Part shown: piece by piece, positions 1 through 31,343 of the stretch
How the letters are laid out: the number at the start of each line of letters is the position of its first letter
How positions within the stretch are numbered: position 1 is the stretch's first letter
NCBI RefSeq assembly: GCF_016820635.1
Contig: NZ_WSFU01000084.1
Location: 1-32,895, forward strand
DNA length: 32,895 nt
Origin: Anaeromonas gelatinilytica
GTDB taxonomy: Bacteria; Bacillota; Clostridia; Tissierellales; SIT17
Reading direction: 5' to 3'
Program-made: the position numbers and the translations under genes
The notes under the pieces: generated by a model
Told to the model about the DNA's origin: nothing
The model's input: only the letters and a program-made list of their open reading frames with translations
Database searches by the model: none

Positions 1-66
1 GCACCGTCGAAGGGAAACTAGGTTTCCTTGAGCTGTGCGGACACGTTTCTAGTCCGCCTTTTTATT
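1..66 (+). repeat. 3' part of dispersed structured element, copy A
   Basis: This stretch aligns with 9556-9617. Both begin GCACCGTC, continue with a GGGAAAC-TAG-GTTTCC hairpin (12-18 with 22-28), and end in a GC-rich hairpin followed by a T run. The 5' part of the copy would lie left of the window. Relative to copy B, the last pair of the terminal stem changes from T-A to C-G, which keeps the pairing. It lies before the murQ promoter, so it is not part of the murQ leader. The family is not recognised. Confidence 0.7.
37..65 (+). terminator. Rho-independent terminator at the 3' end of copy A
   Basis: GCGGAC (37-42) pairs with GTCCGC (52-57) and is followed by CTTTTTATT. The stem is GC-rich in a very AT-rich region. 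It would end any transcript entering from the left and isolates the murQ promoter. Confidence 0.75.
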
Positions 67-7878: not shown

Positions 7879-8862
7879 ATGGATAGTTTAATACTTTTAA
7901 TTATAATTATTGTTGGAATTTTAATATTCTTGACTTTATTATTTAGTTTTATTCCAGTAGGACTATGGATAACAGCATATTTTTCAGGGGTAAAAATTGG
8001 ATTATTTACATTAATTGGTATGAGATTGAGAAAGGTAATACCTTCTAGAATTGTGAGACCAATGATAAAATCTACAAAAGCTGGTATAAACATAGATATC
8101 GATAAATTAGAAGCACATTATTTAGCAGGAGGAAATGTTAATACAGTTGTAGATGCTCTTATAGCAGCTCAAAGAGCAAATATTGAATTACCTTTTGAGA
8201 GAGCAACAGCTATAGATTTAGCTGGACGTAATGTATTAGAAGCCGTACAGGTAAGTGTTAATCCAAAAGTCATTGAAACACCAAAAGTTGCAGCAGTGGC
8301 TAAGGATGGTATAGAAGTTATGACAAAGGCTAGAGTTACAGTTAGAGCTAATATAGAGAGACTTGTAGGTGGTGCTGGTGAAGAAACTATTATTGCCAGA
8401 GTAGGTGAAGGAATAGTAACTACAGTAGGTAGTTCAATTGACCATAAAGCAGTATTAGAAAATCCAGATGTTATTTCTAAAAATATACTTGATAAAGGAT
8501 TAGATGCAGGAACAGCATTTGAAATATTATCCATTGATATAGCTGATGTAGATGTAGGAAGAAACATTGGAGCAACATTACAAACTGATCAAGCGGAGGC
8601 TGATAAGAGAATAGCTCAGGCTAAAGCAGAGGAAAGAAGAGCTATGGCTGTTGCTAAAGAACAAGAAATGAAAGCTGAAGTTCAATCACAAAGAGCAAAA
8701 GTTGTAGAGGCTGAAGCAAAAGTTCCATTAGCATTAGCTGATGCATTAAAAGAAGGGAACTTAGGAGCTATGGATTATTATAATATGAAGAATATTTTAG
8801 CAGATACATCAATGAGAGAATCAATTTCTAATGTTAATAAAGATGATGACAATAAAAATTAG
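7879..8862 (+). CDS. floA: Flotillin-like scaffold protein
   Basis: FloA anchors to the inner membrane face, oligomerises and organises functional membrane microdomains. Its 327 residues match B. subtilis FloA/YqfA (331). The protein has an N-terminal hydrophobic hairpin (about 4-48), a PHB/SPFH-like domain with [20 protein letters not shown] and [17 protein letters not shown], and a long Ala/Glu/Lys coiled-coil tail (about 240-290) rich in [18 protein letters not shown]-type repeats. AAGGAGG precedes the ATG. It sits between yqeZ and an unknown membrane-anchored protein. Confidence 0.95.
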
Positions 8863-8871
8863 GGTGATTCA

Positions 8872-9354
8872 ATGAATATTTTTGAATTTATAGGACCGTT
8901 TTTAATATTTCTTATACCAGTAGTAATTAAAAGTTTTGCTGAGAAACAGAAAGCTAATAAGAAACAAAATGAAAGAAATATAAATGGGAATTTAAGTAAG
9001 GAGAGAAATGCCGTTGGGTTAGAAAATATAGAAGCTATTCCTCCTATGAAAGATGATTTTGGGAAAAATATAAAAGAAAAGAAAGAAAGAGTTATTAAAC
9101 ATAAAGTAAATGAGAAAATAAAAAGTGAAATCAAAAAAGCAAAAGAAAACAAAGTAGAACAAAATAAGAAATATGAAGTGAATATAGAAAAGGAACCTAA
9201 AGCAACATTAAAGATTTCAAAGAATGATAAGATAAAGAAAAATGAAATTGGTTCGGATAATATTCAATTAAAATTTGATAAAGAAAGTATAGTGAAAGGT
9301 ATAGTGATGTCTGAGATATTATCATCACCTAAAGCATTAAAAGGAAAAAAATAA
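8872..9354 (+). CDS. Unrecognised lysine-rich protein with one N-terminal membrane segment
   Basis: The function is not recognised. The 160 residues start with a hydrophobic segment (about 3-20, FEFIGPFLIFLIPVVI). A highly charged, low-complexity Lys/Glu/Asn stretch (about 22-130) follows, likely disordered or helical. The protein ends in a compact motif around IVKGIVMSEILSSPKALKG. That end resembles the SEILGPPKA-type tail I associate with unannotated proteins beside flotillin genes, but that is from memory. AGGGTGA lies ten bases after floA, so it is cotranscribed and probably membrane-associated. It is larger than B. subtilis YqfB and not clearly its homologue. Confidence 0.75.
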   Translation: MNIFEFIGPFLIFLIPVVIKSFAEKQKANKKQNERNINGNLSKERNAVGLENIEAIPPMKDDFGKNIKEKKERVIKHKVNEKIKSEIKKAKENKVEQNKKYEVNIEKEPKATLKISKNDKIKKNEIGSDNIQLKFDKESIVKGIVMSEILSSPKALKGKK

Positions 9355-9367
9355 TTGATTATATTTA

Positions 9368-9401
9368 GAAGAGTAGCGTTTAAACGTTACTCTTCTTTTT
9401 T
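9368..9401 (+). terminator. Rho-independent terminator of the floA operon
   Basis: GAAGAGTAGCGT (9368-9379) pairs with ACGTTACTCTTC (9384-9395) over 12 pairs with a TTAA loop, followed by six T. The T run is shared with the start of structured element copy B. Confidence 0.9.
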
Positions 9402-9617
9402 GTTGTCTAAGAAAGTTTATTTAATAAAAGTTTTAGACTATTGATAAATACAAGGGTTAATAGTCACAGAAAAGATTGGAAGACAATAAAAAATAGGGGT
9501 TGTAGGGGATGGAATCCCATGCCGTATTAGAAGGGTGCTCAGGTGCACGTATTACGCACCGTCAAAGGGAAACTAGGTTTCTCTAGTGAAGCGGATACGC
9601 TTTTTATCCGCCTTTTT
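9401..9617 (+). ncRNA. Dispersed structured element, copy B (fullest copy); candidate small RNA
   Basis: This is an intergenic element of about 215 nt. The closing stem is TTGTCT (9403-9408) with AGACAA (9481-9486). Inside it are an invariant block (9411-9435) and a GACTATT/AATAGTC stem (9436-9442 with 9459-9465). Downstream of it come GTTGTAGGGGA, then GGGAT-GGA-ATCCC (9506-9518), a GGTGC/GCACC pairing (9534-9538 with 9556-9560), a GGGAAAC-TAG-GTTTCTC hairpin (9567-9583) and a terminator hairpin GCGGATA/TATCCGC (9591-9611) with T5. Its own terminator argues for a free-standing RNA rather than a plain yqfC leader. I saw no resemblance to tmRNA, SRP RNA, 6S RNA or a riboswitch I know. A mobile-element remnant remains possible. 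Confidence 0.55.
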
Positions 9618-9670
9618 GTAATAGTAGTAATTTTTAAAGCATAAATTTAATTATGGAGGAGGGTAGTAGC

Positions 9671-9946
9671 ATGGCTAAGAAGATAGAGAATGCAAAAAAC
9701 AGTATAGCAGAAGTTTTAGAATTACCAAAAGAAATAATATTAGACTTACCTAAAATTACAATGATAGGTAGTATTCAATTATATATAGAAAATCATAAAG
9801 GAATAGTAGAATATAGTAAAGAGAGAATTAGAATTAATAGTAAAGTAGGAATTATAAGAATAATTGGAAAGAAAATGATAATTAAAAATATAGTATCAGA
9901 GGAAATCGTAATAACAGGTGAAATTATAAATATAGAATTTATATGA
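9671..9946 (+). CDS. yqfC: Sporulation protein YqfC
   Basis: YqfC is a small conserved sporulation protein of the YabP/YqfC family, made in the mother cell in B. subtilis. The 91 residues match the usual length and have the typical features: LELPKEIILDLPKITMIG, then short beta-strand repeats (KVGIIRIIGKKMIIKNIV, EEIVITGEI). I chose ATG 9671 because GGAGGAGGG (9657-9663) is spaced correctly; the earlier in-frame ATG lies inside that site. It is directly followed by yqfD. The upstream gap is filled by the floA terminator and element copy B. Confidence 0.9.
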   Translation: MAKKIENAKNSIAEVLELPKEIILDLPKITMIGSIQLYIENHKGIVEYSKERIRINSKVGIIRIIGKKMIIKNIVSEEIVITGEIINIEFI

Positions 9947-9959
9947 TTGAGGTGAAAGT

Positions 9960-11195
9960 ATGTTAATCATTAGATTATGGAATTATTTTCGTGGATATGT
10001 TATTATTAGGATTGAAGGATTAACTTTGGAAAGATTTATCAATTTAGCTGCTATAAATAATGTTTATCTCTGGGATATTGAAAGATATGATTATACAACT
10101 TTAGAAGCAAAAGTTAGCTTAAAAGGAGTTAAGGAATTAAGAGAAATTATATTAAAAGCAGGATGCAGATTGAATATAATATCTAAAGAAGGATTACCCT
10201 TTTTACTTAGTAGATTAAGAAAAAGAAAGATGTTAGCTATTGGCTTTGTATTAGTTATAGGAGTAATCTTTTTTTTAACCTCTTTTATTTGGAATATAGA
10301 AATAAACAGCACTGGCGATTTAAATGAAGAAGAATTAATTGAATATTTAAATAAAGAAGGTATAAAAATCGGTATAAAAAAATCTATAATAGAAGAAGAA
10401 GAACTGAAAATTAATATTTTAGAAAAGTTTGAGGATATTGCATATGTAAATATCAATATCAAAGGGACTAATTTAGTAATAGAACTTAAGGAAAGAAGTT
10501 ATATAACCGAAGATGAAACAATAGATAAGAATAAGCCATGTAATATTGTGGCAAGTAAGAAAGGTATTATAGAAAAGACTATAGCTAAAAATGGTAATGT
10601 AGTAGTAGAAAAGGGAGAAATTGTTGAAAAAGGTCAATTACTTATAACAGGAATAGTACAAAATGATTTAGAAGAAAATATATTATTAGTTCATGCAAAT
10701 GGGGAAATTTTAGCTAGAACTTATTATACAAATACAATAAAAGAACCTATAGTTAAAGAGATACAGGAGGAAACAGGTGAAAAATACTTTTCAAGAGAAA
10801 TAAAGATAGGAAATAAAAGCATACATTTAAAAAATGGAGATATACCTTTTGAAAATTATATAGAGTATATTGATGATAAAGAAAAGGGATTTTATTCAAT
10901 TATACCATTTGATGTAATTACTCATGAATATAGAGAGGTAAAAAATAAAACTATCAAACAAAATGTAGATTCATTAAAAGAATCCCTTAACGTTATTATA
11001 ACTCAAAAAACAATGAAAGAAATTCCAGAAAATAGTCAGGTTGTATCAAAAGATATAGAATTTGAAACAGAGGATAATTTTTTAATAGCAAAGATTCAAT
11101 TAGAATTAATTGAAGATATAGGAAAAATAGAATATATTAAAGAAGAATTATATGATAAACCAGAAGAAGATATAGAAGAAAATGAGGAGGAGTAA
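9960..11195 (+). CDS. yqfD: Sporulation protein YqfD
   Basis: YqfD is a conserved sporulation protein (stage IV, SpoIV-associated in annotation) found only in endospore formers. The 411 residues contain an N-terminal cytoplasmic region (about 1-85, with NNVYLWDIERYD), one membrane segment (about 91-109, FVLVIGVIFFLTSFIW), and a large extracytoplasmic region with a POTRA-like part (about 110-180) and a barrel-sandwich-like part (GNVVVEKGEIVEKGQLLITG). The C-terminus is very acidic. ATG follows GAGGTGA. It lies between yqfC and phoH as in Bacillus and Clostridia. Confidence 0.9.
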   Translation: MLIIRLWNYFRGYVIIRIEGLTLERFINLAAINNVYLWDIERYDYTTLEAKVSLKGVKELREIILKAGCRLNIISKEGLPFLLSRLRKRKMLAIGFVLVIGVIFFLTSFIWNIEINSTGDLNEEELIEYLNKEGIKIGIKKSIIEEEELKINILEKFEDIAYVNINIKGTNLVIELKERSYITEDETIDKNKPCNIVASKKGIIEKTIAKNGNVVVEKGEIVEKGQLLITGIVQNDLEENILLVHANGEILARTYYTNTIKEPIVKEIQEETGEKYFSREIKIGNKSIHLKNGDIPFENYIEYIDDKEKGFYSIIPFDVITHEYREVKNKTIKQNVDSLKESLNVIITQKTMKEIPENSQVVSKDIEFETEDNFLIAKIQLELIEDIGKIEYIKEELYDKPEEDIEENEEE

Positions 11196-11197
11196 TA

Positions 11198-12172
11198 TTG
11201 TCAAAAGATTCTACAGAAAAAAGGATAAGAATAAATAACGAGGAGCTTACAATGGAGCTTTTTGGTAATTTTGATAAGAATATTAAACTTATTGAAAATG
11301 AGTTCAATGTAGATATAGTATCTAGAGAAGGTGAAATTAGAGTTCTTGGTGAAAAGGATAATGTTGATTTGTCTGAGGCTTTAATTCAAAAGCTTATAGA
11401 AATTGTTAAGAAAGAAGGACATTTAACTTCGCAACAGATTAGATATGCTATAAATTTGATATATAAAGGAAAAGAAGATAAAATTAATGATTTATTAGAT
11501 GAGACTGTTTGTATAACATTTTCGGGTAAAACCATTAAACCTAAAACATTAGGACAAAAAAAGTATATTAATTCTATAAAAAATAATGATATAGTGTTTG
11601 GTATAGGGCCTGCTGGTACTGGAAAAACTTATCTCGCAGTAGCAAAAGCGGTTCAAGCTTTCAAAAATAAAGAAGTTGATAGAATTATACTAACAAGACC
11701 TGCAGTAGAAGCAGGAGAAAAATTAGGTTTTTTACCAGGAGATTTGCAAGATAAAGTTGATCCATATTTAAGACCTGTTTATGATGCTTTATTTGATGTA
11801 TTTGGTGGAGAAGCCTTCTTAAAAAATAGAGAAAGAGGATTAATTGAGATAGCACCATTAGCATATATGAGAGGTAGGACATTAGATTCTGCTTTTGTTA
11901 TATTGGATGAAGCTCAAAATACTACTTCTGAACAAATGAAAATGTTTTTAACTCGTTTAGGTTTAGGATCTAAAGCTATCATAACTGGTGATATAACTCA
12001 AATAGATTTACCAAACGGGAAAATTTCAGGATTAAAACAAGTTACACATATTCTTAAAAATGTAAAAGGTATAGATTTTGTGTATTTAAACAAGAATGAT
12101 GTAGTAAGACACAGATTAGTTCAAAGTATAATAGAAGCTTATGAAAAAAATCAAAATAAAACTAAAGGATAA
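11198..12172 (+). CDS. phoH: PhoH-family ATPase
   Basis: This is a cytoplasmic PhoH-like P-loop ATPase/putative helicase, thought to act in RNA or ribosome metabolism with YbeY. The 324 residues have an N-terminal small domain (about 1-105), then Walker A GPAGTGKTYLA (about 137-147), TRPAVEAGEKLGFLPGDL, Walker B VILDEAQN and the downstream GDITQIDLP. The start is TTG after GAGGAGTAATA, the ribosome site lying within the end of yqfD. The yqfD-phoH-ybeY-dgkA order is standard in Firmicutes. Confidence 0.93.
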   Translation: MSKDSTEKRIRINNEELTMELFGNFDKNIKLIENEFNVDIVSREGEIRVLGEKDNVDLSEALIQKLIEIVKKEGHLTSQQIRYAINLIYKGKEDKINDLLDETVCITFSGKTIKPKTLGQKKYINSIKNNDIVFGIGPAGTGKTYLAVAKAVQAFKNKEVDRIILTRPAVEAGEKLGFLPGDLQDKVDPYLRPVYDALFDVFGGEAFLKNRERGLIEIAPLAYMRGRTLDSAFVILDEAQNTTSEQMKMFLTRLGLGSKAIITGDITQIDLPNGKISGLKQVTHILKNVKGIDFVYLNKNDVVRHRLVQSIIEAYEKNQNKTKG

Positions 12173-12205
12173 TAAATAGGAAATAGAAGAGAGGAAGAAC
12201 AGCTC

Positions 12206-12661
12206 ATGGAAGTTTATATAGATAATAGGCAAACAGAAGTATTATTGGATGAAGATATAGAATATATGATAAGTAAAGTTATTGAAGAATGTTTAAAATA
12301 TGAGAATCATAGAATGGATTATGAGATAAGTGTATCATTTGTTAACAGTGAAGAGATTAAGGATTTAAATTTAAATTTTAGAGGTAAAAATAGAGAGACT
12401 GATGTGTTATCATTTCCTATGGAGGATAATAAAGATATTGAAGGTCAAATACCTATATTGGGTGATATAGTTATATCAACTCAGAAAGCAAAGGAACAAG
12501 CAGAAGAATATAATCACAGCTTAAAAAGAGAAATAGCGTATTTAACAGCTCATAGTATGTTTCATCTAATGGGATATGATCATATGACTGAAAAAGACAA
12601 GGAAATTATGAGGAGTAAGGAAAAACAAATAATGAAAAAATTAAAGATTTTTAAAAATTAA
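12206..12661 (+). CDS. ybeY: Endoribonuclease YbeY
   Basis: YbeY is a zinc endoribonuclease for 16S rRNA 3' maturation and ribosome quality control. The 151 residues are typical. The metal-binding motif HSMFHLMGYDH (about 123-133) supplies the three histidines; the usual Gly after the first His is Ser here. The family motif RGKNRETDVLSFPM is also present. The start is ATG 12206, with GAGAGGAAGA as a distant ribosome site. Confidence 0.95.
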   Translation: MEVYIDNRQTEVLLDEDIEYMISKVIEECLKYENHRMDYEISVSFVNSEEIKDLNLNFRGKNRETDVLSFPMEDNKDIEGQIPILGDIVISTQKAKEQAEEYNHSLKREIAYLTAHSMFHLMGYDHMTEKDKEIMRSKEKQIMKKLKIFKN

Positions 12662-12681
12662 TATGAAAGCAGGTAATTATA

Positions 12682-13371
12682 GTGAAAAGATTAATAGATA
12701 GTTTCAATTATGCAATTGAAGGAATTATCTATACATTAAAAACTCAGAGGAACATGAAAATTCATTTTTTCATGATGATTATAATATTATTATTAAGTTT
12801 GTTTTTTGATTTTTCTAAGATTGAATTATTGTTACTATTATTTGCTATTGCATTGGTAATAATAACAGAAATGATTAATACAGCAATAGAAAAGGCAGTA
12901 GATATGATTACTAAAGAATTTCATCCCTTAGCTAAGATTGCTAAAGATGTAGCTGCTGCTTCTGTATTAGTTGCAGCTATAAATTCTATAATGGTAGGAT
13001 ATTTACTTTTTTTTTATCATGTAAATCCATTTACAAGATCAATATTATTTAAAATAAGGAGTTCTCCAGTACATCTGACTTTTATATGTATATTACTTAT
13101 TATAATAATTACTATTATAATAAAAACTATTACTCAAACAGGAACACCATTTGAAGGGGGAATAATTAGTGGACATACTGCTTTAGCATTTACTGTCTCA
13201 ACTGTTATTACATTTTTAAGCGAAAATATATTAATAGCGACATTAAGCTTTTTATTATCGATTTTAGTGGGGCAAAGTAGAGTAGAAGGAAAAATTCATT
13301 CTATATTTCAGGTCATTAATGGAGCTATATTGGGTATATTATTAACAGTACTAATTTTTCAATTATTATAG
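12682..13371 (+). CDS. dgkA: DgkA-type lipid kinase fused to a PAP2-like domain
   Basis: Residues about 1-112 form a small three-helix membrane kinase of the DgkA family (undecaprenol or diacylglycerol kinase), with IITEMINTAIEKAVD and AKIAKDVAAASVLVAA. Residues about 115-229 form a PAP2-like membrane domain: SGHTALAF matches the phosphatase motif 2, and SRVEGKIHSIFQV matches motif 3 except that the final Asp is Gln. The KX6RP motif 1 is not evident. The kinase half looks intact, while phosphatase activity is doubtful. Such fusions occur in Clostridia at this locus, where the likely role is recycling undecaprenol for wall synthesis. The start is GTG. Confidence 0.85.
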   Translation: MKRLIDSFNYAIEGIIYTLKTQRNMKIHFFMMIIILLLSLFFDFSKIELLLLLFAIALVIITEMINTAIEKAVDMITKEFHPLAKIAKDVAAASVLVAAINSIMVGYLLFFYHVNPFTRSILFKIRSSPVHLTFICILLIIIITIIIKTITQTGTPFEGGIISGHTALAFTVSTVITFLSENILIATLSFLLSILVGQSRVEGKIHSIFQVINGAILGILLTVLIFQLL

Positions 13372-13391
13372 ATTTCTGTTGGAGGGATATC

Positions 13392-14654
13392 ATGGCGGGC
13401 AACTTCATACTCATAAGAATAATATTTTTGATAATACTTTTAATATTGTCTGCTTTTTTTTCTAGTTCAGAAACAGCTTTAGTAGGATTGAAAATTGCTG
13501 AAATAAGACAACTTAGAGAAAAAGATGAGAAAAAAGCTAAATTATTAGAAAGAATTAAAAAGAGAATTAATATAATACTATCTACAATATTAGTAGGAAA
13601 TAATTTAGTCAATATTTTGGCTACTACTATATTAACTCAATTAACAATGGAATTTTTTAAAGGTAGTACTTCAACTTTCATATCTACAATTGTTATGACT
13701 GTATTAATATTAATATTTGGAGAGATAACACCAAAAACTTTTGCCACTCAAAATCCGGGAAAAGTTTCTATTATTGTAGCAAGACCAATAGAAATATTAT
13801 CAAAAATATTCAATCCTATTTTAATAATACTTAACTTTATTACTAGTTTCATGATAAAAATATTAGGAGGAAAAGTAGATTCTTCTGGTACCTTTGTAAC
13901 TGAGGAAGAGATAAGGACATTAGTGGATGTAGGTGAAGAAGAGGGAGTTGTAAAGCTTCACGAAAAAGAAATGATTGAGAATATATTTGATATAGACCAT
14001 ATTGATGTGGGAGATGTGATGATTCCAAGAATAGACATTATCGCTGTGTCTCAAGATGATTCTATGGAAACTGCATTAAATAAAATAACTAAATATGGAC
14101 ATTCAAGAATTCCTGTATATAAAAATACTATTGATAATATTATTGGGGTATTATATGCAAAGGATATATTACCTTTTGTAGTTAATAAGCAACAGGAGAT
14201 AAATGAAACAAAGATTGTAGATATAATAAGAGAACCTTATTATGTTCCTGAAACTAAAAAGGCTAATAAACTTTTAACAGAACTTCAACAAAATAAGGTA
14301 CACATGGCAATAGTTTTAGATGAATATGGAGGAACAGAAGGATTAGTTACGATTGAAGATGTCTTAGAAGAAATAGTAGGTGATATATATGATGAATATG
14401 ATAATGATGAGAATATGATTGAAAAGGTTAATGAATCTATATATAAGATAAGAGCCGATATATCTCTTGAAGATATTAATGAATTTTTCAATACTAATTT
14501 TCCAGAAGAAGATTTCGATTCTTTAGGAGGATATATATTTAGTAGTTTAGGTAGAGTACCTAAGCAGGAAGATACTTTAGAAGAGCAAGGAATAAAGATG
14601 ATAGTAAGAAAAGTTGTTAATAGAAGAATTAAAGTTGTGGAGATAAAAAAATAG
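13392..14654 (+). CDS. CNNM/CorC (HlyC)-family transporter
   Basis: The 420-residue membrane protein has an N-terminal CNNM/DUF21 domain with about four membrane segments (1-150; FFSSSETALVG, LVGNNLVNI, FGEITPKTFA), a tandem CBS pair (about 205-330; VMIPRIDII, HSRIPVYKNTIDNIIGVLYA, LDEYGGTEGLVTIEDVLEEI) and a C-terminal CorC/HlyC domain (about 340-418). Relatives export or regulate Mg2+ and, in some cases, Co2+. The older label hemolysin is not supported by function. ATG follows GGAGGG. Confidence 0.9.
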   Translation: MAGNFILIRIIFLIILLILSAFFSSSETALVGLKIAEIRQLREKDEKKAKLLERIKKRINIILSTILVGNNLVNILATTILTQLTMEFFKGSTSTFISTIVMTVLILIFGEITPKTFATQNPGKVSIIVARPIEILSKIFNPILIILNFITSFMIKILGGKVDSSGTFVTEEEIRTLVDVGEEEGVVKLHEKEMIENIFDIDHIDVGDVMIPRIDIIAVSQDDSMETALNKITKYGHSRIPVYKNTIDNIIGVLYAKDILPFVVNKQQEINETKIVDIIREPYYVPETKKANKLLTELQQNKVHMAIVLDEYGGTEGLVTIEDVLEEIVGDIYDEYDNDENMIEKVNESIYKIRADISLEDINEFFNTNFPEEDFDSLGGYIFSSLGRVPKQEDTLEEQGIKMIVRKVVNRRIKVVEIKK

Positions 14655-14676
14655 ATTTAAATTAGGAGTGAATTTG

Positions 14677-15714
14677 GTGAAAAAAATATTTCTTATATTA
14701 GTAATCATATTTTTAATATTTACTATATCTTGTAGTGAAGATCAAAATAACTATGAGTTAGATGATACAGACAATCAATCAGAGGAAGAAAATGAATCGA
14801 TTAATGACAAATCGGAGAAAGTAGTATCTCCATTAAGTGGTATATATACAGAAAAAAATAAAGTTGACAGAAGGCCAGTAGCAGTGATGTTTGATAATCA
14901 CAGAAATGCCAGATGGCAATCTGGATTAAGTGAAGCTGAAGTATTATATGAATTTTTAGTTGAAGGTAAAATAACTAGATATATGGCTATATATTTGGTA
15001 AATGATCCAGAAGTAATTGGACCTGTTAGAAGCTCAAGACCATATTTTTTATCAGCTGCATTAGAATATGATTCATTATATGTACATTGTGGAGGAAGTC
15101 CAGAAGCAGTAGAAGATATAGAAAAATTAAATATAGATAATGTGAGTTGTATGTCTGAATCCAATGATGTGTTTTATAGAAATAATGAAGTAGGGAAATC
15201 TTCTCCTCATAATTTATATACCAATATGGAATCTATAAGAAAATATCAAGATGAAATAGGATATAATTTAGATGGGGACTATGAAGCTTTTTCATTTAAT
15301 AAAGAAATTAAAAGTATCAAAGGGGATAATGCAAAAGAGGTAATTATAGATTATGGTTTGAATAATATCACTAGTTATAAGTATGATGATGAATCAAATT
15401 TATATCTAAGATATAAGGATGGTAAACCACATATAGATGAAAATAATAATACTAATTTAACAGCTACAAATATAATTATTCAAGAAGCTAATACACAGGT
15501 AATAGATGAACAAAAAAGATTACAAATTGATATAATAGGAAAAGGGGAAGGATATTATATAACAAATGGAGAATATATAAAGATTACTTGGGAGAAAGAT
15601 TCTAGGGAATCTAAAACTAGATACTATGATGAATTAGGAAAAGAGATAATTCTTAATCCAGGAAATACATGGATACAAGTAACTCCAATAAATCCTGAAA
15701 TAAAAATTTCTTGA
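14677..15714 (+). CDS. DUF3048 lipoprotein, YerB type
   Basis: This is a secreted lipoprotein of unknown function in the DUF3048 family (YerB in B. subtilis). I chose GTG 14677 (346 codons) because AGGAGTG at 14664-14670 is six bases upstream. A signal peptide (about 1-19) ends in the lipobox TISC. An acidic Asn/Glu linker (about 20-50) precedes the conserved domain with RRPVAVMFDNHRNARWQSGL and GPVRSSRPYFLSAALEYD. The domain ends with TWIQVTPIN. It sits between a transporter and cdd with no visible promoter of its own. Confidence 0.85.
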   Translation: MKKIFLILVIIFLIFTISCSEDQNNYELDDTDNQSEEENESINDKSEKVVSPLSGIYTEKNKVDRRPVAVMFDNHRNARWQSGLSEAEVLYEFLVEGKITRYMAIYLVNDPEVIGPVRSSRPYFLSAALEYDSLYVHCGGSPEAVEDIEKLNIDNVSCMSESNDVFYRNNEVGKSSPHNLYTNMESIRKYQDEIGYNLDGDYEAFSFNKEIKSIKGDNAKEVIIDYGLNNITSYKYDDESNLYLRYKDGKPHIDENNNTNLTATNIIIQEANTQVIDEQKRLQIDIIGKGEGYYITNGEYIKITWEKDSRESKTRYYDELGKEIILNPGNTWIQVTPINPEIKIS

Positions 15715-15729
15715 ATAGAAGGTGTTATA

Positions 15730-16152
15730 ATGAAAATAGATAAATTGATTAAAGAAGCATTAGAAGCAAAGAATATGGCATATGTACCTTATTCTGGTTT
15801 TAGAGTAGGTGCTGCAGTATTAACCGAAGAAAATAAAATATATACTGGATGTAATATAGAATCAGCAAGTTATAGTCCAACCAATTGTGCAGAAAGAACA
15901 GCAATATTTAAAGCAGTTTCAGAAGGTTATACTAAATTTAAAGCAATAGCAATCACAGGTGACAGAGAATATACATTTCCATGTGGAGTATGTAGACAAG
16001 TGATGAGAGAATTTTCAAAGGATTTAAAAATATATATAGTGAAAAATGAGAATGAATATAAGGAATATACATTAAAAGAACTACTACCTCATAGTTTTGG
16101 ACCTGAAGATTTAGAAAGAAAAACAGCTGAGGAGAAATGCGATGAAGTTTAA
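15730..16152 (+). CDS. cdd: Cytidine deaminase
   Basis: Cdd is a homotetrameric zinc enzyme that deaminates cytidine and deoxycytidine to uridine forms for pyrimidine salvage. The 140 residues carry YVPYSGFRVGAAV, the catalytic NCAERTA (Cys ligand and proton-shuttling Glu) and PCGVCRQ with two more zinc cysteines. ATG follows GAAGGTG. It overlaps era by 11 bases. The cdd-era order is common in Firmicutes. Confidence 0.95.
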   Translation: MKIDKLIKEALEAKNMAYVPYSGFRVGAAVLTEENKIYTGCNIESASYSPTNCAERTAIFKAVSEGYTKFKAIAITGDREYTFPCGVCRQVMREFSKDLKIYIVKNENEYKEYTLKELLPHSFGPEDLERKTAEEKCDEV

Positions 16153-17032
16153 ATCAGGATTTATAACAATAATTGGCAGACCTAATGTGGGTAAGTCTAC
16201 ATTATTGAATCATATTATAGGTGAAAAAATATCAATAATATCAGACAAACCTCAAACTACAAGAAATAAAATCCAAACCATTTATACAACAGAAAATAGT
16301 CAAATGGTATTTGTAGATACACCAGGAATACATAAGCCTAAAAATAAGTTAGGGGAATTTATGAATAAGGAAGTTTCTCTTGCCTTAGAGGATATGGATG
16401 TATTAGTATGGCTTGTAGATGAAAGTCTAGAAATAGGGCCTGGAGATAGTAGAATTTTAAAATCTCTTGATAATATAAAGACTCCTAAAATCTTAGTCAT
16501 TAATAAAATAGATAAATTGACAAAAGATCAAGTAAATAAAATAATTAATAAATATGAAGAAAAACATGATTTTGCTAATATAGTACCTATTTCAGCAAAG
16601 AATGGTAAAAATGTAGATGAATTATTAAAAAAAATAGAATATATATTACCGGAAGGACCAAAATATTTTCCTGAAGATATGATAACAGATCAGCCAGAAA
16701 GACTTATAGTGTCTGAAATAATTAGAGAAAAGACTCTTTATTATCTAGATCAAGAAGTACCTCATGGTATAGCTGTTGAAACTACAATGATGAAAGATAG
16801 ACCAGAGAAAGAATTAATAGATATTCATGCTACAATTTATTGCGAGAAAAGTTCTCATAAGGGTATAATAATTGGTAAAGGTGGAAGAAAACTTAAAGGC
16901 ATAGGTAAAAGTGCACGAAAAGATATAGAAAGATTTTTAGGGATTAAAGTTAACTTACAACTGTGGGTAAAAGTAAATAAAAATTGGAGAGAAAAAGAAA
17001 ATCTAGTAAAGCGTATGGGATATAAAAAATAA
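16142..17032 (+). CDS. era: GTPase Era
   Basis: Era is a GTPase that binds the 3' end of 16S rRNA for 30S assembly. The 296 residues are typical. G motifs: GRPNVGKS (G1), the PQTTRNK switch region, DTPG (G3), NKID (G4) and SAKNG (G5). The C-terminal KH domain has HKGIIIGKGGRKLKGIG. Translation is coupled to cdd by an 11-base overlap; the ribosome site GAGGAG lies in cdd. Confidence 0.97.
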   Translation: MKFKSGFITIIGRPNVGKSTLLNHIIGEKISIISDKPQTTRNKIQTIYTTENSQMVFVDTPGIHKPKNKLGEFMNKEVSLALEDMDVLVWLVDESLEIGPGDSRILKSLDNIKTPKILVINKIDKLTKDQVNKIINKYEEKHDFANIVPISAKNGKNVDELLKKIEYILPEGPKYFPEDMITDQPERLIVSEIIREKTLYYLDQEVPHGIAVETTMMKDRPEKELIDIHATIYCEKSSHKGIIIGKGGRKLKGIGKSARKDIERFLGIKVNLQLWVKVNKNWREKENLVKRMGYKK

Positions 17033-17119
17033 ATTTATCATTTATTTACACTATTTGTATTGTATAATTCACTTTTTTCATCGCAAACTAATGTTATATT
17101 AGTTGTATGGGAGGATATT

Positions 17120-17263
17120 ATGTTAGAAAACGACATATGGAAAATATTTGAAACAACAGGAAAAATTGATGCATATTTATATTATAAAGAACTAGTGAAT
17201 AATCAAGAAAATCAAAGTAATCAAAATACAAGAGAGGTAAATGATAAAAGTTCTAATATGTAA
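17120..17263 (+). CDS. yqzL: YqzL-like small protein
   Basis: This 47-residue protein has the YqzL signature near its start (WKIFETTGKIDAYLYYKEL), then an Asn/Gln-rich tail. In B. subtilis yqzL lies at the same place between era and recO. No function is established. ATG 17120 is chosen because GGGAGG (17109-17114) precedes it; extending upstream adds residues unlike the family. Its 3' end runs to within 20 bases of the recO start. Confidence 0.8.
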   Translation: MLENDIWKIFETTGKIDAYLYYKELVNNQENQSNQNTREVNDKSSNM

Positions 17264-17282
17264 GGGTGATAGAGGTGACTTA

Positions 17283-18026
17283 ATGTTATATAAACTTCAA
17301 GGGATAGTATTAAAAGCAACAAAGCTTAATGATTCAGATAAAATTATAACTATATTTACAAAGGAGCAAGGGAAAATTCAAGCCATAGGAAAAGATGTTA
17401 GAAATCCTAAAAGTAAGTTAGTAGGTTCTACTCAAGTATTTGCTCTAAGTGAATTTATATTATATAAGGGAAAGGGTTTATATAATATAAATCAAGGTGA
17501 AGTAATAAAATCATTCTATCCTTTGAGAGAAGATTTAAAGAAATTAGCCTATGCATCCTACATTATTGAGCTTGTTAATAGTGGTGTTATTGAAGAGGAA
17601 TCTAATATCAAGGTGTTTGGATTATTAGAAAAAACTTTAAGTTTAATAATTTCAGATAACAGGTATAAACAAATAGTTAGAGCATTTGAATTAAAGTTTA
17701 TAAGTTATTTAGGTTATAGACCTCATTTGATTAACTGCGTTAATTGTAATAATGATATAATTAAAAATGTAAGATTTAGTATAGTTCATAGTGGACTTTT
17801 ATGTGAAAATTGTTATAATATTGATAAATATAGTAAAAATATTAATTTGGAAGTTGTAAATACAATGAAATTTCTTTTATTTAGTTCCTTTGAGGATATT
17901 TTAAAGATTGAAGTTGAAGCAGATATTCTTAAAACATTAGAAAAATTATTATTTTCATATATAGCTAAGAATATAAATAAAACCAATTTCAATTCATTAA
18001 AATTTATAAATGATGTAGAAAAATAA
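17283..18026 (+). CDS. recO: DNA repair protein RecO
   Basis: RecO is a recombination mediator that helps load RecA on SSB-coated DNA with RecR. The 247 residues have an N-terminal OB-fold (GIVLKATKLNDSDKIITIFTK) and a helical domain with a four-cysteine zinc site (CVNCNN about 160 and CENC about 184). The start ATG 17283 follows AGAGGTGA; the longer reading from 17241 lacks a ribosome site and overlaps yqzL. Confidence 0.95.
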   Translation: MLYKLQGIVLKATKLNDSDKIITIFTKEQGKIQAIGKDVRNPKSKLVGSTQVFALSEFILYKGKGLYNINQGEVIKSFYPLREDLKKLAYASYIIELVNSGVIEEESNIKVFGLLEKTLSLIISDNRYKQIVRAFELKFISYLGYRPHLINCVNCNNDIIKNVRFSIVHSGLLCENCYNIDKYSKNINLEVVNTMKFLLFSSFEDILKIEVEADILKTLEKLLFSYIAKNINKTNFNSLKFINDVEK

Positions 18027-18041
18027 TATGGAGGTGTTACT

Positions 18042-18548
18042 TTGGATATAAGTTTGGAGAAAATTGATACTATTAGAGAACGTACTGGTGTAAGCTATAA
18101 AGAAGCAAAAGATGTATTGGAAAGAAATGATGGTGATATAGTTGAAGCATTAATTGATATTGAAAATAGCAAAAAGAGTAATGAATTTAGCATAAATGAA
18201 ACTAGTGAAGAGATTATTTCTAAATTAAAAGAAACTATTAAAAAAGGTAATGTAACAAAAATACTTCTTAAAAAAGATGGAGAAACTATTATGAATATTC
18301 CTGTTACAGCAGGAGCGATTGGTGCAGTATTAGCTCCACAATTATCGGCAATAGGAATAGCTGCAGCGATGATTTCAAGAACTACTCTTGAGATAGTAAA
18401 AGAAAATGGAGAAGTCATAAATTTAAATGATATGGCTGGAAAGACAATGGATAAAATAATGAAAAGAGATAAAAAATCATCTGCTACTATGAATGATAGT
18501 AATAATATGCAATATGAATCTAAAAATGTAGATGATGATACTTATTAA
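18042..18548 (+). CDS. DUF4342 protein with UBA-like N-terminus
   Basis: The function is unknown. Residues about 3-43 form a UBA/TS-N-like three-helix domain (IDTIRERTGVSYKEAKDVLE, GDIVEALID), as found at the N-terminus of elongation factor Ts. Residues about 58-135 match the DUF4342 pattern: a charged helix, then KILLKKDGETIMNIPVTAG, a hydrophobic Ala-rich segment and ISRTTLEIVKENGEV. The C-terminal 30 residues are polar and disordered-looking. The start is TTG, five bases after a strong GGAGGTG. It is the last gene before the glyQS promoter. Confidence 0.8.
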   Translation: MDISLEKIDTIRERTGVSYKEAKDVLERNDGDIVEALIDIENSKKSNEFSINETSEEIISKLKETIKKGNVTKILLKKDGETIMNIPVTAGAIGAVLAPQLSAIGIAAAMISRTTLEIVKENGEVINLNDMAGKTMDKIMKRDKKSSATMNDSNNMQYESKNVDDDTY

Positions 18549-18550
18549 TA

Positions 18551-18579
18551 TTGACAACACTTTAATTCTTTGCTAAATT
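18551..18579 (+). promoter_or_regulatory. Promoter of the glyQS T-box operon
   Basis: TTGACA (18551-18556) and TAAATT (18574-18579) are 17 bp apart, with TG just before the -10 (extended -10). A transcription start near 18586 would begin the T-box leader. Confidence 0.65.
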
Positions 18580-18585
18580 ATTTAT

Positions 18586-18793
18586 ATAATTTATATATAT
18601 ATAATTTGTTGCTATGACGAAGAATAGTAGATTAATATTATCATTTTAGCGAGTCGGGAAAGGTGGGAGCCTGATATGATAAGTTTTTTGAAGGCACTTT
18701 GGAGCAATATTACTAAGCGGGTACTTTGGTACCAAATAGGGTGGAACCGCGGAAGTTACCTTTCGTCCCTATATAGGGATGAAAGGTTTTTTA
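18586..18793 (+). promoter_or_regulatory. Glycine T-box leader of glyQS
   Basis: This transcript leader senses uncharged tRNA-Gly. Stem I is closed by TTGCT (18609-18613) with AGCAA (18703-18707) and has a GA-rich/AGTAG segment near its base. The specifier GGC (18693-18695) lies in TTGAAGGCACTT, in the same context as the B. subtilis glyQS specifier, and reads glycine. The T-box AGGGTGGAACCGCG is at 18738-18751. The competing terminator is 18758-18769 with 18776-18787 followed by T6. No separate stem II is obvious, as in other glyQS leaders. Confidence 0.95.
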
Positions 18794-18827
18794 TTGTCTA
18801 TAATAACTAGACAAAGGAGGAGAAAAA

Positions 18828-19703
18828 ATGTATTTACAAGATCTTATATTGAAACTACAGCAATATTGGGGAGAAAAGGGTTGCTTAGTGATGCAATCTT
18901 ATGATGTAGAGAAAGGTGCAGGAACTATGAATCCAAATACTTTTCTGAGAGCATTGGGACCTGAACCATGGAAGGTAGCATATGTTGAACCATCTAGAAG
19001 ACCAGCAGATGCTAGATATGGAGAAAATCCAAATAGAGTATATCAACATCATCAAATGCAGGTGATAATAAAACCATCTCCTGATAATATTCAAGAATTA
19101 TATCTAGAGAGTTTAGAAGCTATAGGAATTGATCCTTTAAAACATGATATAAGATTTGTTGAGGATAATTGGGAAGCACCAACATTAGGAGCATGGGGTC
19201 TAGGTTGGGAAGTTTGGTTAGATGGAATGGAGATAACTCAGTTCACATATTTTCAACAAGTAGGAGGTCTTAACTGTCAATTAGAATCAGCAGAAATTAC
19301 TTATGGGTTAGAAAGAATTGCAATGTACTTACAAGATGTTGATAATATATTTGATATAAAATGGACAGAAGAGATAAAATATGGAGAAATATTTAAACAA
19401 GCCGAATATGAGCATTCTGTTTATAGTTTTGATCAAGCAGAAAAGGATATGTTGTTTAAATTATTTGATATCTATGAAAAAGAAGCTGCTAGGTTAATAG
19501 TAGAAGATTTAATATATCCTGCTTATGATTATGTGTTAAAATGTTCTCATACCTTTAACATATTAGATGCAAGAGGAGCTATTAGTGTAACTGAAAGAAC
19601 TAGTTTTATTGGAAGAGTTAGAAATTTAGCTAAATTAATAGCCTCTAAATATGTAGAAAAAAGAGAAAAATTAGAATTCCCATTATTGAAGGAGGGAATA
19701 TAA
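18828..19703 (+). CDS. glyQ: Glycyl-tRNA synthetase alpha subunit
   Basis: GlyQ is the catalytic alpha subunit of the bacterial alpha2-beta2 glycyl-tRNA synthetase. The 291 residues match the family, with [39 protein letters not shown] and [16 protein letters not shown] follows AAAGGAGGAG. Expression is controlled by the glycine T-box immediately upstream. Confidence 0.97.
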
Positions 19704-21782
19704 ATGAGTAAATATTTATTAGAAATAGGAACAGAAGAAATTCCTTATAGATTTATGGAGGGTGCCTTAAATCAAATGAAAGTCATGATGGGGAATATGC
19801 TTAATGAAAATAGGATTGAATATGATGATATATATACATATGGAACGCCTAGAAGATTAGTTGTATTGGTCGAAGGTATTAGTAAAGTACAATCAGACTT
19901 AGAAGAAATGGTTAAAGGTCCTTCTAAAAAGATTGCTTATAATGATTCAATGGAACCTTCAAAAGCTTTATTAGGATTTGCAAAAGGACAGGGAGTAGAT
20001 ATTGAAAATATCATTGTAAAAGACTTTAATGGAGAAGATTATGTATTTGCTAATAAAAATGTAAAAGGAATAGAAAGTAAAAAAATCTTAAAGAAGGAAA
20101 TAGTTAATTATATAAAAAATATTCACTTTCCAAAACCAATGAAATGGGGAGGAAAAAACATAAAATTTGCTAGACCTATAAGATGGTTAGTATCATTATT
20201 AGATGATGAAATTGCTGAATTTGATTTAGAAGGAATAATACCATCAAATAAAACAAGAGGTCATAGATTTCTAGGTTCTGATAATGTGATTGTAGAAAAT
20301 GTTGATGATTATTTTATAAAGATAAAAGAAAATTATGTTATAGTAGATCAAGAAAAAAGAGAAGAACTAATAAAAGCAGGTTGTAAAAAATTAGCTAAAG
20401 AAAAAGGTGGAAATCTATTAAAAGATGATGAATTGCTAAAACAACTAACTTATATAGTAGAGTATCCTACACCTTTAATAGGAAGAATTAAAGAAGAATA
20501 TTTACAGTTGCCTAAAGAAGTTATAATTACCCCTATGAAGGAACATCAACGTTATTTTCCAGTAGTAGATGATAATAATAAGCTTTTGCCATATTTTATA
20601 GCTGTAAGAAACGGGAATAAAGAAAATATTAATATAGTTACAAAAGGAAATGAAAAAGTATTAGATGCTAGATTAGAGGATGCTAAATTTTTCTATAATG
20701 AAGATTTGAAAAATAAATTAGAAGACTATGTGGATGATCTTAGAACAATAGTATATCAAGAAAAGTTAGGTACATTATATGATAAGACTAAGAGAATAAA
20801 TGAACTATCTATTGAAATGGCTAAGGAACTTGAGTTAGGAGAAGAAACAGAGGATAATATTGATAGAGCAAGTATTTTAGCTAAGGCTGACTTAGTTACA
20901 AAGATGGTAAATGAGTTTACAGAATTACAAGGTATAATGGGAAGGGAATATGCATTTAAATCTGGAGAAAATGAGATAGTAAGTTTATCTATCTATGAAC
21001 ATTATCTTCCTAGATTTGCAGGAGATGAATTACCATCAACTACGGCAGGAGCAGTTATAAGTATAGCAGATAAATTAGATACTATTTGTGGTTCGTTTGC
21101 TATAGGCTTTCAACCAACAGGAAGTCAAGATCCATTTGGACTTAGAAGACAGGCGTTAGGGATTATTAATATTATTTTAAAGAAGAATTTAGATTTACCG
21201 TTATATGAATTTATAGAATCTTCTTTGAGAATTTATATAGAAAATGAATTATATTTTGATTTTGAAAAAGTAAAAGAAGAAATAATAAGTTTCTTTAAAG
21301 GTAGAATGAAAAATATGTTTATAGATGAAGGAATAAGATATGATGTAGTTGAAGCGGTGTTAAGTATCGGAAATGATAACATAGCTGATAATGTGGTTAG
21401 ACTAAAAGAATTAAATAAATGGGTTGAAAAAGAAGAATTTAATGAGATATTGTTAGCCTTTAATAGAGTTTCAAAAATCGCGGGAAAAGCTAAGACTAAT
21501 GAAATATCACCAGAATTGTTACAGGAAGAAGAAGAAGTCAATTTATATAAAGTATATAAAGAAGTAAAAGAAGAAGTGAAAGAATATATATTACAGAAAG
21601 AGTATGATAAAGCTTTAGATAAAGTGGTTCATCTTAGAGGATATATTGATGAATTTTTTGATAATGTAATGGTGATGGTTGATGATGAAGATATTAAGAA
21701 GAATAGACTTGCCCTAATAAATAATGTTTCAAATATCATGCTTCAAATTTGTGATTTATCTAAAATTTCAAATTCAAATTAA
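19704..21782 (+). CDS. glyS: Glycyl-tRNA synthetase beta subunit
   Basis: GlyS is the tRNA-binding beta subunit that pairs with GlyQ. The 692-residue length is normal. It opens with the typical LLEIGTEEIPYRFM, has KPMKWG, TPMKEHQRYFPV and an HD-like central region (EFTELQGIMGREYA), and ends with a helical anticodon-binding domain. ATG directly follows the glyQ stop; AAGGAGGG lies in the end of glyQ. Confidence 0.97.
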   Translation: MSKYLLEIGTEEIPYRFMEGALNQMKVMMGNMLNENRIEYDDIYTYGTPRRLVVLVEGISKVQSDLEEMVKGPSKKIAYNDSMEPSKALLGFAKGQGVDIENIIVKDFNGEDYVFANKNVKGIESKKILKKEIVNYIKNIHFPKPMKWGGKNIKFARPIRWLVSLLDDEIAEFDLEGIIPSNKTRGHRFLGSDNVIVENVDDYFIKIKENYVIVDQEKREELIKAGCKKLAKEKGGNLLKDDELLKQLTYIVEYPTPLIGRIKEEYLQLPKEVIITPMKEHQRYFPVVDDNNKLLPYFIAVRNGNKENINIVTKGNEKVLDARLEDAKFFYNEDLKNKLEDYVDDLRTIVYQEKLGTLYDKTKRINELSIEMAKELELGEETEDNIDRASILAKADLVTKMVNEFTELQGIMGREYAFKSGENEIVSLSIYEHYLPRFAGDELPSTTAGAVISIADKLDTICGSFAIGFQPTGSQDPFGLRRQALGIINIILKKNLDLPLYEFIESSLRIYIENELYFDFEKVKEEIISFFKGRMKNMFIDEGIRYDVVEAVLSIGNDNIADNVVRLKELNKWVEKEEFNEILLAFNRVSKIAGKAKTNEISPELLQEEEEVNLYKVYKEVKEEVKEYILQKEYDKALDKVVHLRGYIDEFFDNVMVMVDDEDIKKNRLALINNVSNIMLQICDLSKISNSN

Positions 21783-21808
21783 TACAAAGAAGCCAATAGG
21801 ATAAAGGG

Positions 21809-22453
21809 GTGAGAAATATCCAATTAACAAATAGGCAAGAAAAAATAATAGAGATAGTAAAGGAAAATGAACCTATTACTAGTGAAGCTATTGCAAAAAA
21901 ATTAAAATTAACAAGATCTACATTAAGACCAGATTTATCTATACTCACAATGAGTGGTATATTAGATGCTAGGCCTAAGGTTGGTTACTTTTATTCAGGA
22001 ATGTCAGAAGTTAATGTTTTTAGAGATAAAATAAATTCCATAAAAGTAGGAGATATTAAATCATTACCCACAATAATAGACGAAGAAACATCGGCATATG
22101 ATGCTATAGTAACATTGTTTTTAGAAGATGTAGGAAGTATTTTTGTAACTTCGGATAATTGTCTCTCTGGTATAATTTCTAGGAAAGATTTACTAAAAAG
22201 TGCAATTGGTAATACGGATATAAATAAAATACCTGTAGCTATGATAATGACAAGAATGCCAAATATAATATACTTAGAAGAAAGTGAAACTATATTAGAG
22301 GCAGCTATAAAAATCATAGAACATGAAGTAGATAGTCTCCCAGTAGTTGAAAAACATGAAAATAGCTTAGGGGAGGAACAATTGAAAGTTGTTGGAAAAA
22401 TTTCTAAAACTAATATAACTAAATTATTTGTTGATTTAGGTATAGAAAACTAG
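21809..22453 (+). CDS. ccpN: CcpN-like gluconeogenesis repressor
   Basis: This is an HTH plus CBS-pair regulator homologous to B. subtilis CcpN (YqzB), which represses gapB and pckA in glycolytic conditions. The winged HTH (about 1-65) contains ITSEAIAKKLKLTRSTLRPDLSILTMSGILDARPKVGYFYSG; the two CBS motifs follow (about 75-205). GTG 21809 is chosen because the N-terminus aligns with CcpN from this residue and AGGA lies seven bases upstream. The next gene is ppsR, as in Bacillus (yqzB-yqfL). Confidence 0.9.
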   Translation: MRNIQLTNRQEKIIEIVKENEPITSEAIAKKLKLTRSTLRPDLSILTMSGILDARPKVGYFYSGMSEVNVFRDKINSIKVGDIKSLPTIIDEETSAYDAIVTLFLEDVGSIFVTSDNCLSGIISRKDLLKSAIGNTDINKIPVAMIMTRMPNIIYLEESETILEAAIKIIEHEVDSLPVVEKHENSLGEEQLKVVGKISKTNITKLFVDLGIEN

Positions 22454-22466
22454 GGGGTTATTTATA

Positions 22467-23285
22467 ATGGATAAAATGATGGTAGCCTATGTATTGTCTG
22501 ATTCTATTGGAGAAACGGGAGAAGAAGTAGCTCAAGCGGCAATAAGCCAATTTAATTCTGGTGAATATGAAATTAGAAGATTTCCGTATATCACAGAAGA
22601 AAATCAGATAGTAGAAATATTAGAAGAAGCTAAAGAGGAAAATTGTATAATATTATTTACTATTGTAGTAGATAGTTTACGTAAATTTTTAATAGAAAAA
22701 TCTAAGGAATATGATATACAGGCTATAGACATATTAGAACCAATTTTGAATGGTATTGAAAATGTTGTAGGATTTAAACCTAAAAGAGAACCAGGATTAA
22801 TAAGAAAATTAGATGAAAATTATTTTAGAAAAGTTGCAGCAGTTGAATTTGCTGTTAAATATGATGATGGCAAAGATACAAGAGGTATAAGAAAAGCAGA
22901 CATAGTACTTATAGGAGTATCAAGAACTTCGAAAACACCATTAAGTATGTATTTGGCTCATAAGAATGTAAAAGTAGCTAATATACCTTTATTGCCTGAA
23001 GTTAAACCTCCAAAGGAATTATATGAAATAGATCCTAAAAAGATAATAGGATTGACCGCAAATCCAATAAAGCTCAATGAAATTAGACAGGAAAGACTAA
23101 AAGCATTGGGATTAAAAAATTCAGCTAATTATGCAAGTATGGAGAGAATACTTAGAGAAATTGAATATGCTGAAGAATTAATGGAAGATTTTGATTGTAA
23201 TATTATAGATGTATCTAATAAAGCAATTGAAGAAACAGCAGGAGTTATATTAGAACTTATAAGAATTAAAAATATGAATGATTAA
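22467..23285 (+). CDS. ppsR: Pyruvate, phosphate dikinase regulatory protein
   Basis: This is a DUF299 bifunctional kinase/phosphorylase that switches pyruvate phosphate dikinase off by ADP-dependent threonine phosphorylation and on by phosphorolysis. B. subtilis YqfL is the homologue. The 272 residues contain the family P-loop-like motif GVSRTSKTPLSMYLA (about 151-165) and the N-terminal SDSIGETGEEVA. ATG follows AGGGGGT. The target ppdK is not in the window. Confidence 0.93.
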   Translation: MDKMMVAYVLSDSIGETGEEVAQAAISQFNSGEYEIRRFPYITEENQIVEILEEAKEENCIILFTIVVDSLRKFLIEKSKEYDIQAIDILEPILNGIENVVGFKPKREPGLIRKLDENYFRKVAAVEFAVKYDDGKDTRGIRKADIVLIGVSRTSKTPLSMYLAHKNVKVANIPLLPEVKPPKELYEIDPKKIIGLTANPIKLNEIRQERLKALGLKNSANYASMERILREIEYAEELMEDFDCNIIDVSNKAIEETAGVILELIRIKNMND

Positions 23286-23314
23286 AGAGTATCTTAAGAT
23301 ACTCTTTAGTTTTT
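23284..23314 (+). terminator. Rho-independent terminator after ppsR
   Basis: AAAGAGTATC (23284-23293) and GATACTCTTT (23298-23307) form a perfect 10-bp stem with a TTAA loop, followed by AGTTTTT. It ends the glyQ-glyS-ccpN-ppsR unit. Element copy C starts in its T run. Confidence 0.88.
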
Positions 23315-23473
23315 GATTGTCAAGGAAAGTTTATTTAATAAAAGTTTTAAATTACTGATAAATATAAGTGTTAATGATCACAGAAAATATTATAGGACAA
23401 TCAAAATAGGGTTGTAGGGGAGGGAAACTAGGTTTCCCTAGTGAAGGAGGATACGCTTTTTATCCAATTTTTT
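23311..23473 (+). ncRNA. Dispersed structured element, copy C (internally deleted)
   Basis: This is the same element as 9401-9617. The closing stem is TTGATTGTC (23313-23321) with GACAATCAA (23396-23404), extendable to 11 pairs. The invariant 25-nt block at 23325-23349 is identical to copy B. GTTGTAGGGGA is kept, but the two middle hairpins of copy B (about 50-60 nt) are missing. A perfect GGGAAAC-TAG-GTTTCCC hairpin (23422-23438) and a shortened GGATA/TATCC terminal stem (23449-23465) with a T6 tract follow. The inner stem has two mismatches, so this copy may be degenerate. Confidence 0.5.
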
Positions 23474-23638
23474 GATAATATGCGTATGTGATTAATTATA
23501 CTCAAATTTGGTAATAGATATATAATAAAAACAATAAAAAATCATATTATATTTGAAGGAATTAGACATAGCTTTGTTGTATATAGAATATAATAGATTT
23601 AACTATTTATGAAAAGCAATGTGAAAGAGGGTATAATC
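23474..23638 (+). other. AT-rich leader region before dgt
   Basis: Between element copy C and the dgt start I see no gene. A TATAAT at 23589-23594 could be a -10 element, but the best -35 (TAGACA, 23563-23568) is 20 bp away, so promoter assignment is weak. Confidence 0.35.
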
Positions 23639-31304: not shown

Positions 31305-31343
31305 TACATATAAAGATATAAAACATTATATATTATAGAATCA

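Follow-up and report, generated by a model that had tools for sequence, protein, structure and literature searches.

Clostridiales-2 RNA is described in Rfam (RF02937) as an sRNA gene, modeled over 82 positions, with two hairpins and a conserved GGGUGCUCAG. One earlier paper is said to be the likely source of motifs of this kind; the literature we searched, which excluded that source, contained no paper on Clostridiales-2 RNA or RF02937, and none was found on such repeats in combination with terminators or introns. Canonical members of the IS200/IS605 group are not known to leave a target duplication, and guide-like pairing next to the cleavage site is a feature of IS608. The BOX elements of pneumococcus are intergenic repeats of modular build that show hairpins and internal deletions, and for which we know of no terminator T-tract target. 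Group IIC introns, according to one study, recognize the stem-loop of terminators (PMC7161350).

The window, the whole stretch of DNA analyzed here (32,895 nucleotides), is an entire contig (G000:C5:1-32895) of Anaeromonas gelatinilytica and contains three copies of a repeat, A, B, and C. The 85-nt core of copy B is Clostridiales-2 RNA: cmscan aligned RF02937 to 9488..9572 of the forward strand with 70.3 bits (gathering score 58.6), and the core shares hairpins H2 and H3 and the conserved GGGUGCUCAG with the two-hairpin consensus. The Rfam model spans under half of the full 216-bp unit, which adds a left hairpin, a hairpin H4, and a terminator. Whereas Rfam types the family as an sRNA gene, the behavior of the full unit appears to be that of a mobile element directed at terminators, and copies like C lack the core. 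We give a probability of roughly 0.78 to the reading that the unit is a short clostridial mobile element of about 165-216 bp, neither coding nor autonomous, that inserts at terminator T-tracts. Rfam already covers the core; the addition made by this analysis is mobility directed at terminators.

The element shares with group IIC introns a target behind intrinsic terminators (91/134 copies; sites B and C), but it encodes no protein, is about 200 nt long, and shows no association with reverse-transcriptase genes; no group II intron family was matched by Rfam in the window, nor up to E = 1 around copy B. Hairpin ends, polar insertion, and guide-like pairing beside the cleavage site resemble IS200/IS605-derived and REP/RAYT elements, from which the unit differs in that no Y1 gene was found beside a copy, and in having a probable target duplication and a long conserved RNA-like core. 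Modularity, internal deletions, and hairpins recall BOX elements at the level of general description.

The original prediction, which had raised an undescribed RNA family, named an Rfam search as its check and a hit to a known family as evidence against it; that search returned RF02937 above the gathering score, and novelty is ruled out for the core of copy B. The left hairpin domain and the terminator lie outside the Rfam model, which also misses the other two copies: copy C had no RF02937 match up to E = 1, and copy A, cut by the contig end, had none at the gathering score.

All three copies lie on the forward strand. Copy A (1..63), recognized by sequence and blastn, consists of the 3' end only because the contig begins within the element. 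Copy B (9403..9618; 216 bp including its right TTTTTG) is delimited by a precise gap at the syntenic loci of three same-genus genomes. Copy C (23310..23475), flanked on both sides by TTTTTGA, is an internal-deletion form without H3 and GGGTGCTCAG; compared with copy B, it lacks the stretch running from the H2 loop through H3. From left to right, the unit contains H1, H2, the conserved GGGUGCUCAG, H3, H4 with its closing triplet, a terminal hairpin, and a run of T's. At copy B, again on the forward strand, the terminator hairpin of the upstream gene (9367..9396, the target, found by scan and present also at the empty sites) is followed by the left copy of the target T-tract, TTTTTG (9397..9402). 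In the fold, the T-tract and TTGTC (9396-9407) pair with GACAATAAAAAA (9482-9493) to form the left hairpin domain H1 (9396..9493). Next come H2 (9502..9522, from the Rfam structure line and folds), the conserved GGGTGCTCAG (9533..9542, nearly invariant in the 19 diverse copies of alignment A1), H3 (9543..9559), H4 (9562..9589; GGGAAAC-TAG-GTTTCTC with closing TCA/TGA), the terminal hairpin, which a scan identified as the stem of the element's own terminator (9591..9611), and the right copy of TTTTTG (9613..9618).

The anatomy drawn earlier from this DNA by itself was borne out in its particulars. The TTGTC/GACAA stem closes the left hairpin in copy B (9403-9407 with 9482-9486) and likewise in copy C; the 25-nt block GAAAGTTTATTTAATAAAAGTTTTA is the longest stretch common to copies B and C, both of which also contain GTTGTAGGGGA; and the GGGAAAC-TAG-GTTTC hairpin is found in A, B, and C. 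As claimed, the terminal stem reads GCGGAC..GTCCGC in A and GCGGAT..ATCCGC in B; the corresponding stem of copy C, GGATA..TATCC, is weaker. The count of three copies, by contrast, was far too low. In the genome of origin (G000; 2.89 Mb, 146 contigs), blastn with copy B gave 44 matches, a likeness far above chance, of which a few are two pieces of a single copy, leaving about 40 places by hand count. Nineteen of the 44 touch a contig end, as expected since a repeat breaks assemblies. The same genome has 21 RF02937 matches, 13 of them above the cut-off.

Multiple observations support mobility with a terminator target. First, synteny between window positions 8000-24600 and three genomes of the same genus (G001-G003) is conserved, with gaps at B and C. 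The empty site at B reads hairpin-TTTTTGTAATAG in G001 and G002 and has six T in G003, and the TTTTTG of the target is present as a single copy in the three empty sites; the filled site reads hairpin, TTTTTTG, the element from TTGTC to CCGCC, and then TTTTTGTAATAG. Copy B is a clean insertion into the T-tract of the terminator, with TTTTTG on either side. Site C is likewise empty in the three genomes, where its flanks are less conserved than those at B. These empty sites and the dispersal of copies support the earlier suggestion of a mobile structured repeat. Second, an almost complete genome, G199, contains 15 full-length copies of 98-100% identity at sites with unrelated flanks, and movement was therefore recent. 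Third, presence is patchy: within the genus, G002 has three RF02937 matches and G001 and G003 have none, and of 249 genomes from the order, 18 have the family, as do 29 of 391 sampled across the class (G000 counted in both). Carriers include Alkaliphilus peptidifermentans DSM 18978 and an Anaerosolibacter isolate. Finally, the copies in the window adjoin unrelated genes and copies elsewhere have differing flanks; no fixed position before related genes, as for a riboswitch or cis-regulator, was found among them. The original prediction was right to call this arrangement unlike a riboswitch, and it is consistent with insertion behind terminators.

A pattern scan of genome contigs was too loose, returning at least 114 stretches, most of which we judged to be chance; an Rfam check of 18 of these gave one RF02937 match, in Alkaliphilus peptidifermentans DSM 18978, and a second pattern, applied to 457 loci, contributed two Anaerosolibacter loci. 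The phage and plasmid collections contained no blastn match to the element. A virus-borne form was considered and set aside: two exact pattern matches in viral contigs were G+C-rich, lacked the element's hairpins by eye, and were taken as chance.

Most inspected copies begin in a T-tract. In four well-defined genomes, a run of five to nine T stood exactly at the left boundary of 47 of 49 copies; one exception is truncated and the other has lost its right end. A terminator hairpin (-6 kcal/mol or lower) directly preceded a T4+ run at 91 of 134 copies, compared with 73 of 537 T5+ control runs taken from these loci. This test took in 145 copies from 37 genomes, 11 of them without a T4 run (one more of the 146 had too short an upstream sequence), and its automatic choice of T-run was visibly wrong for a few copies, such as L003, L006, and L020. 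The right T-run was followed by A in 44 of 47 copies. Left and right flanks agreed beyond the T-run to a greater extent than in within-genome permutations (sum 115 versus a mean of 99.7, sd 5.3; 13 of 5000 as high; two of the 49 copies, L243 and L247, were skipped). Agreement is striking in L395 (TTTTTAATATG on both sides), L394 (TTTTTAATAA), L257 (TTTTTAA), and L256 (TTTTTTG), whereas in L259, L397, L399, and L158 the flanks disagree after the two T-runs. At the window sites, the repeated flank is TTTTTG for B and TTTTTGA for C, though its right T-run may be part of the element. In the 15 tabulated copies of G199, the right run is always T5 and the left varies from 5 to 9; a tail belonging to the element's terminator, and not a duplication, could account for the right T-tract.

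On these grounds, we propose that the unit would insert into the T5-6 tract, usually followed by A, that ends an intrinsic terminator, with the same orientation as the terminated gene, and would leave a T-tract on both sides. The target would be recognized through pairing of its T-tract with an A-tract in the 3' foot of the left hairpin, and the unit would move as a single strand, acted on in trans by an enzyme. Because the element carries its own terminator, it could sit behind a gene at low cost; carriers such as the genome of origin would have dozens of genes with a second terminator behind the first. If this reading is right, an Rfam "small RNA" behaves as a mobile element with terminator T-tracts as its niche, the annotation of the family changes, and the element becomes a means of testing whether simple A-tract/T-tract pairing chooses the target, with the identity of the mobilizing enzyme as a further question. 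Several observations run against this reading: the flank searches described below found no mobilizer, the right T-tract is ambiguous, some flanks disagree, targets in G332 and G271 are not simple runs of T, and H4 covariation and the consensus folds are weak. In addition, two copies lie in frame inside an addB-like gene, and H1 arms swapped between copies of one genome paired about as well as native arms in five of eight genomes.

In L212 (G263:C88) and L213 (G499:C57), the RF02937 element lies in frame within a gene that by eye resembles addB, and the frame stays open across the element. Around the element, 207 of 2700 positions differ between the two loci, and none differs between -88 and +175 relative to the start of the core; co-conversion, recent transfer, and selection are candidate explanations for the identical element and near flanks. 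In L058 and L375, a second, partial copy begins within the terminator T-tract of the first, so the element seems to insert behind itself.

For movement as a single strand, a DNA route with hairpin ends and an HUH-type enzyme would have an appreciable minority of the probability and a reverse-transcribed RNA route a small part of it; some other route, at just under even odds, would take the largest part. Neither association nor adjacency of Y1 or reverse-transcriptase genes revealed a mobilizer.

A tentative possibility is that a Y1 (HUH) transposase, of the IS200/IS605 or RAYT kind, moves the element as single-stranded DNA, with A-tracts that guide it to T-tract cleavage sites at hairpin ends. 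In its favor, an A-tract in the left hairpin is paired to the T-tract at the boundary, insertion has one orientation, and in several genomes an A-tract also precedes the terminal hairpin. In the order, 16 of 18 carriers have Y1 genes, as do 146 of 231 non-carriers. This association is weak because Y1 genes are common, however, and the two carriers without them are incomplete genomes (70% and 81%), of which the latter, G197, has 17 matches. The element was absent from the flanks (up to 1.5 kb) of 30 Y1 loci in eight genomes, and a different repeat, GGGACGGTTCT, adjoins five of the six Y1 loci inspected in G199, G179, G000, and G039. A target duplication would also be at variance with canonical members of the group. 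As a separate observation, the Y1 genes at L285, L286, L287, L289, and L291 are about 260-280 aa long, look RAYT-like by eye, and are flanked by the GGGACGGTTCT-type repeat.

It is doubtful that the unit is, as its Rfam type suggests, a multicopy small RNA gene family that spread by duplication together with its terminator and acts in trans. The type "sRNA," the conserved unpaired GGGTGCTCAG, a covarying H3, and the unit's own terminator favor this reading, as does folding: copy B gave z = -3.79, with none of 200 shuffles as stable, and a G199 copy gave z = -8.31. For the shortened copy C by itself, stability was at the level of chance (z = -1.05; matched by 26 of 200 shuffles). Covariation across genomes was strong in H3, which has 71 distinct sequences among 126 analyzable copies (20 of 146 were left out, one anchor being missing). 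The arm statistics for H1, H3, and H4 all include the kinship of the sequences, and with that component the outer four pairs of H3 were paired at 0.87 in their own arms versus 0.43 after swapping (at most 0.59 across 5000 swaps). The closing triplet of H4 was CCG/CGG in 65, UCG/CGA in 39, and UCA/UGA in 7 of the 126 copies; its distinct arm pairs scored 0.79, within the swap range (mean 0.73, maximum 0.86), and H4 covariation was weak (0.79 versus a swap mean of 0.71, maximum 0.79). In H1, the outer arm consists of the T-tract and the first bases of the element, and in most lineages an A-tract lies at the end of the inner arm; arm pairing averaged 13.06 of 16 positions, compared with 11.67 for cross-genome swaps and 10.97 for shuffles. 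RNAalifold on a MAFFT alignment gave a weak consensus of -7.2 kcal/mol over 69 sequences, after removal of 71 of 140 near-identical rows, and a second consensus (model R1; 18 pairs) was also weak, because H2 and H3 are misaligned in these alignments. The element may be transcribed into a functional RNA. Against a small RNA family stand near-identical copies at unrelated sites, precise empty sites, presence that is patchy even within one genus, and the many additional copies with truncations or internal deletions. The surroundings of copy B show no conspicuous promoter: 2 promoter-like sites in 401 nt compare with 1.7 expected, and none lies inside the element.

A non-autonomous, SINE-like retroelement, whose U-ended RNA would pair with the A-strand of the terminator's T-tract and be copied in by a reverse transcriptase such as that of a group IIC intron, is unlikely. 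The constant right end and variable left T-run fit this route, as do recognition of a terminator stem-loop by group IIC introns, described in the study cited above, and reverse-transcriptase frames of 415-432 codons, some broken, in G199, G200, G000, and G332. We take this length to be the size of group IIC proteins. RVT_1 genes are absent, however, from 9 of 19 carriers examined, including G179 with at least 17 copies, and are not associated with the element in the order (9 of 18 carriers versus 103 of 231 non-carriers, split by hand); the flanks (up to 1.5 kb) of 24 reverse-transcriptase loci did not contain it. A resident reverse transcriptase as mobilizer is unsupported by these counts.

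Shortened forms in G199 can be read in two ways. Besides full-length copies, this genome has further copies with internal deletions and many that are truncated, three of them reduced to H4 and the terminator; of these, L446 and L447 stand directly behind the T-run of a host terminator, each starting at an internal T-run joined to it, as 5' truncation during reverse transcription would leave them. Another, L445, starts within H3, and solo H1 hairpins stand behind terminators. The reduced forms have a GTCACCC variant in common, however, and so may be older copies eroded by later deletion between T-runs rather than truncated insertions. No autonomous relative was found among another 17 G199 loci, which comprise partial copies, solo hairpins, and a single full copy; in the ten of these with 2.4-2.9 kb of sequence, the two largest frames were each metabolic, transport, repair, or uncharacterized by eye, none of them transposase-like.

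A bacterial counterpart of SINEs, in which a structured RNA with its own terminator would select terminator T-tracts by an A-tract guide and a U-tail, be copied 3' end first by a reverse transcriptase or polymerase acting in trans, and have its 5' end resolved by T-tract annealing, is quite improbable. An ordinary MITE moved by a DDE transposase, which would account for a short, non-coding, dispersed unit with a short flanking repeat, is similarly improbable, as the ends, compared by eye, do not form inverted repeats and insertion has a single orientation relative to the T-tract, which is unusual for symmetric DDE targeting.

Returning to the reading of a mobile element guided to terminator T-tracts, the targets in G332 and G271 differ from plain T-runs, and a changed target would offer a natural test of guide pairing. 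In G332 (L380-L385), some copies have flanking repeats such as TTTTCTTGA or TTTTCTTTA in place of plain T-runs, and in several a matching CAAGAAAA-like arm is part of the terminal hairpin.

The window also encodes two other structured RNAs matched by Rfam, a class A RNase P RNA at 30968-31306 (292.7 bits) and a T-box leader at 18605-18773 (95.3 bits) upstream of genes that by eye resemble those for glycyl-tRNA synthetase.
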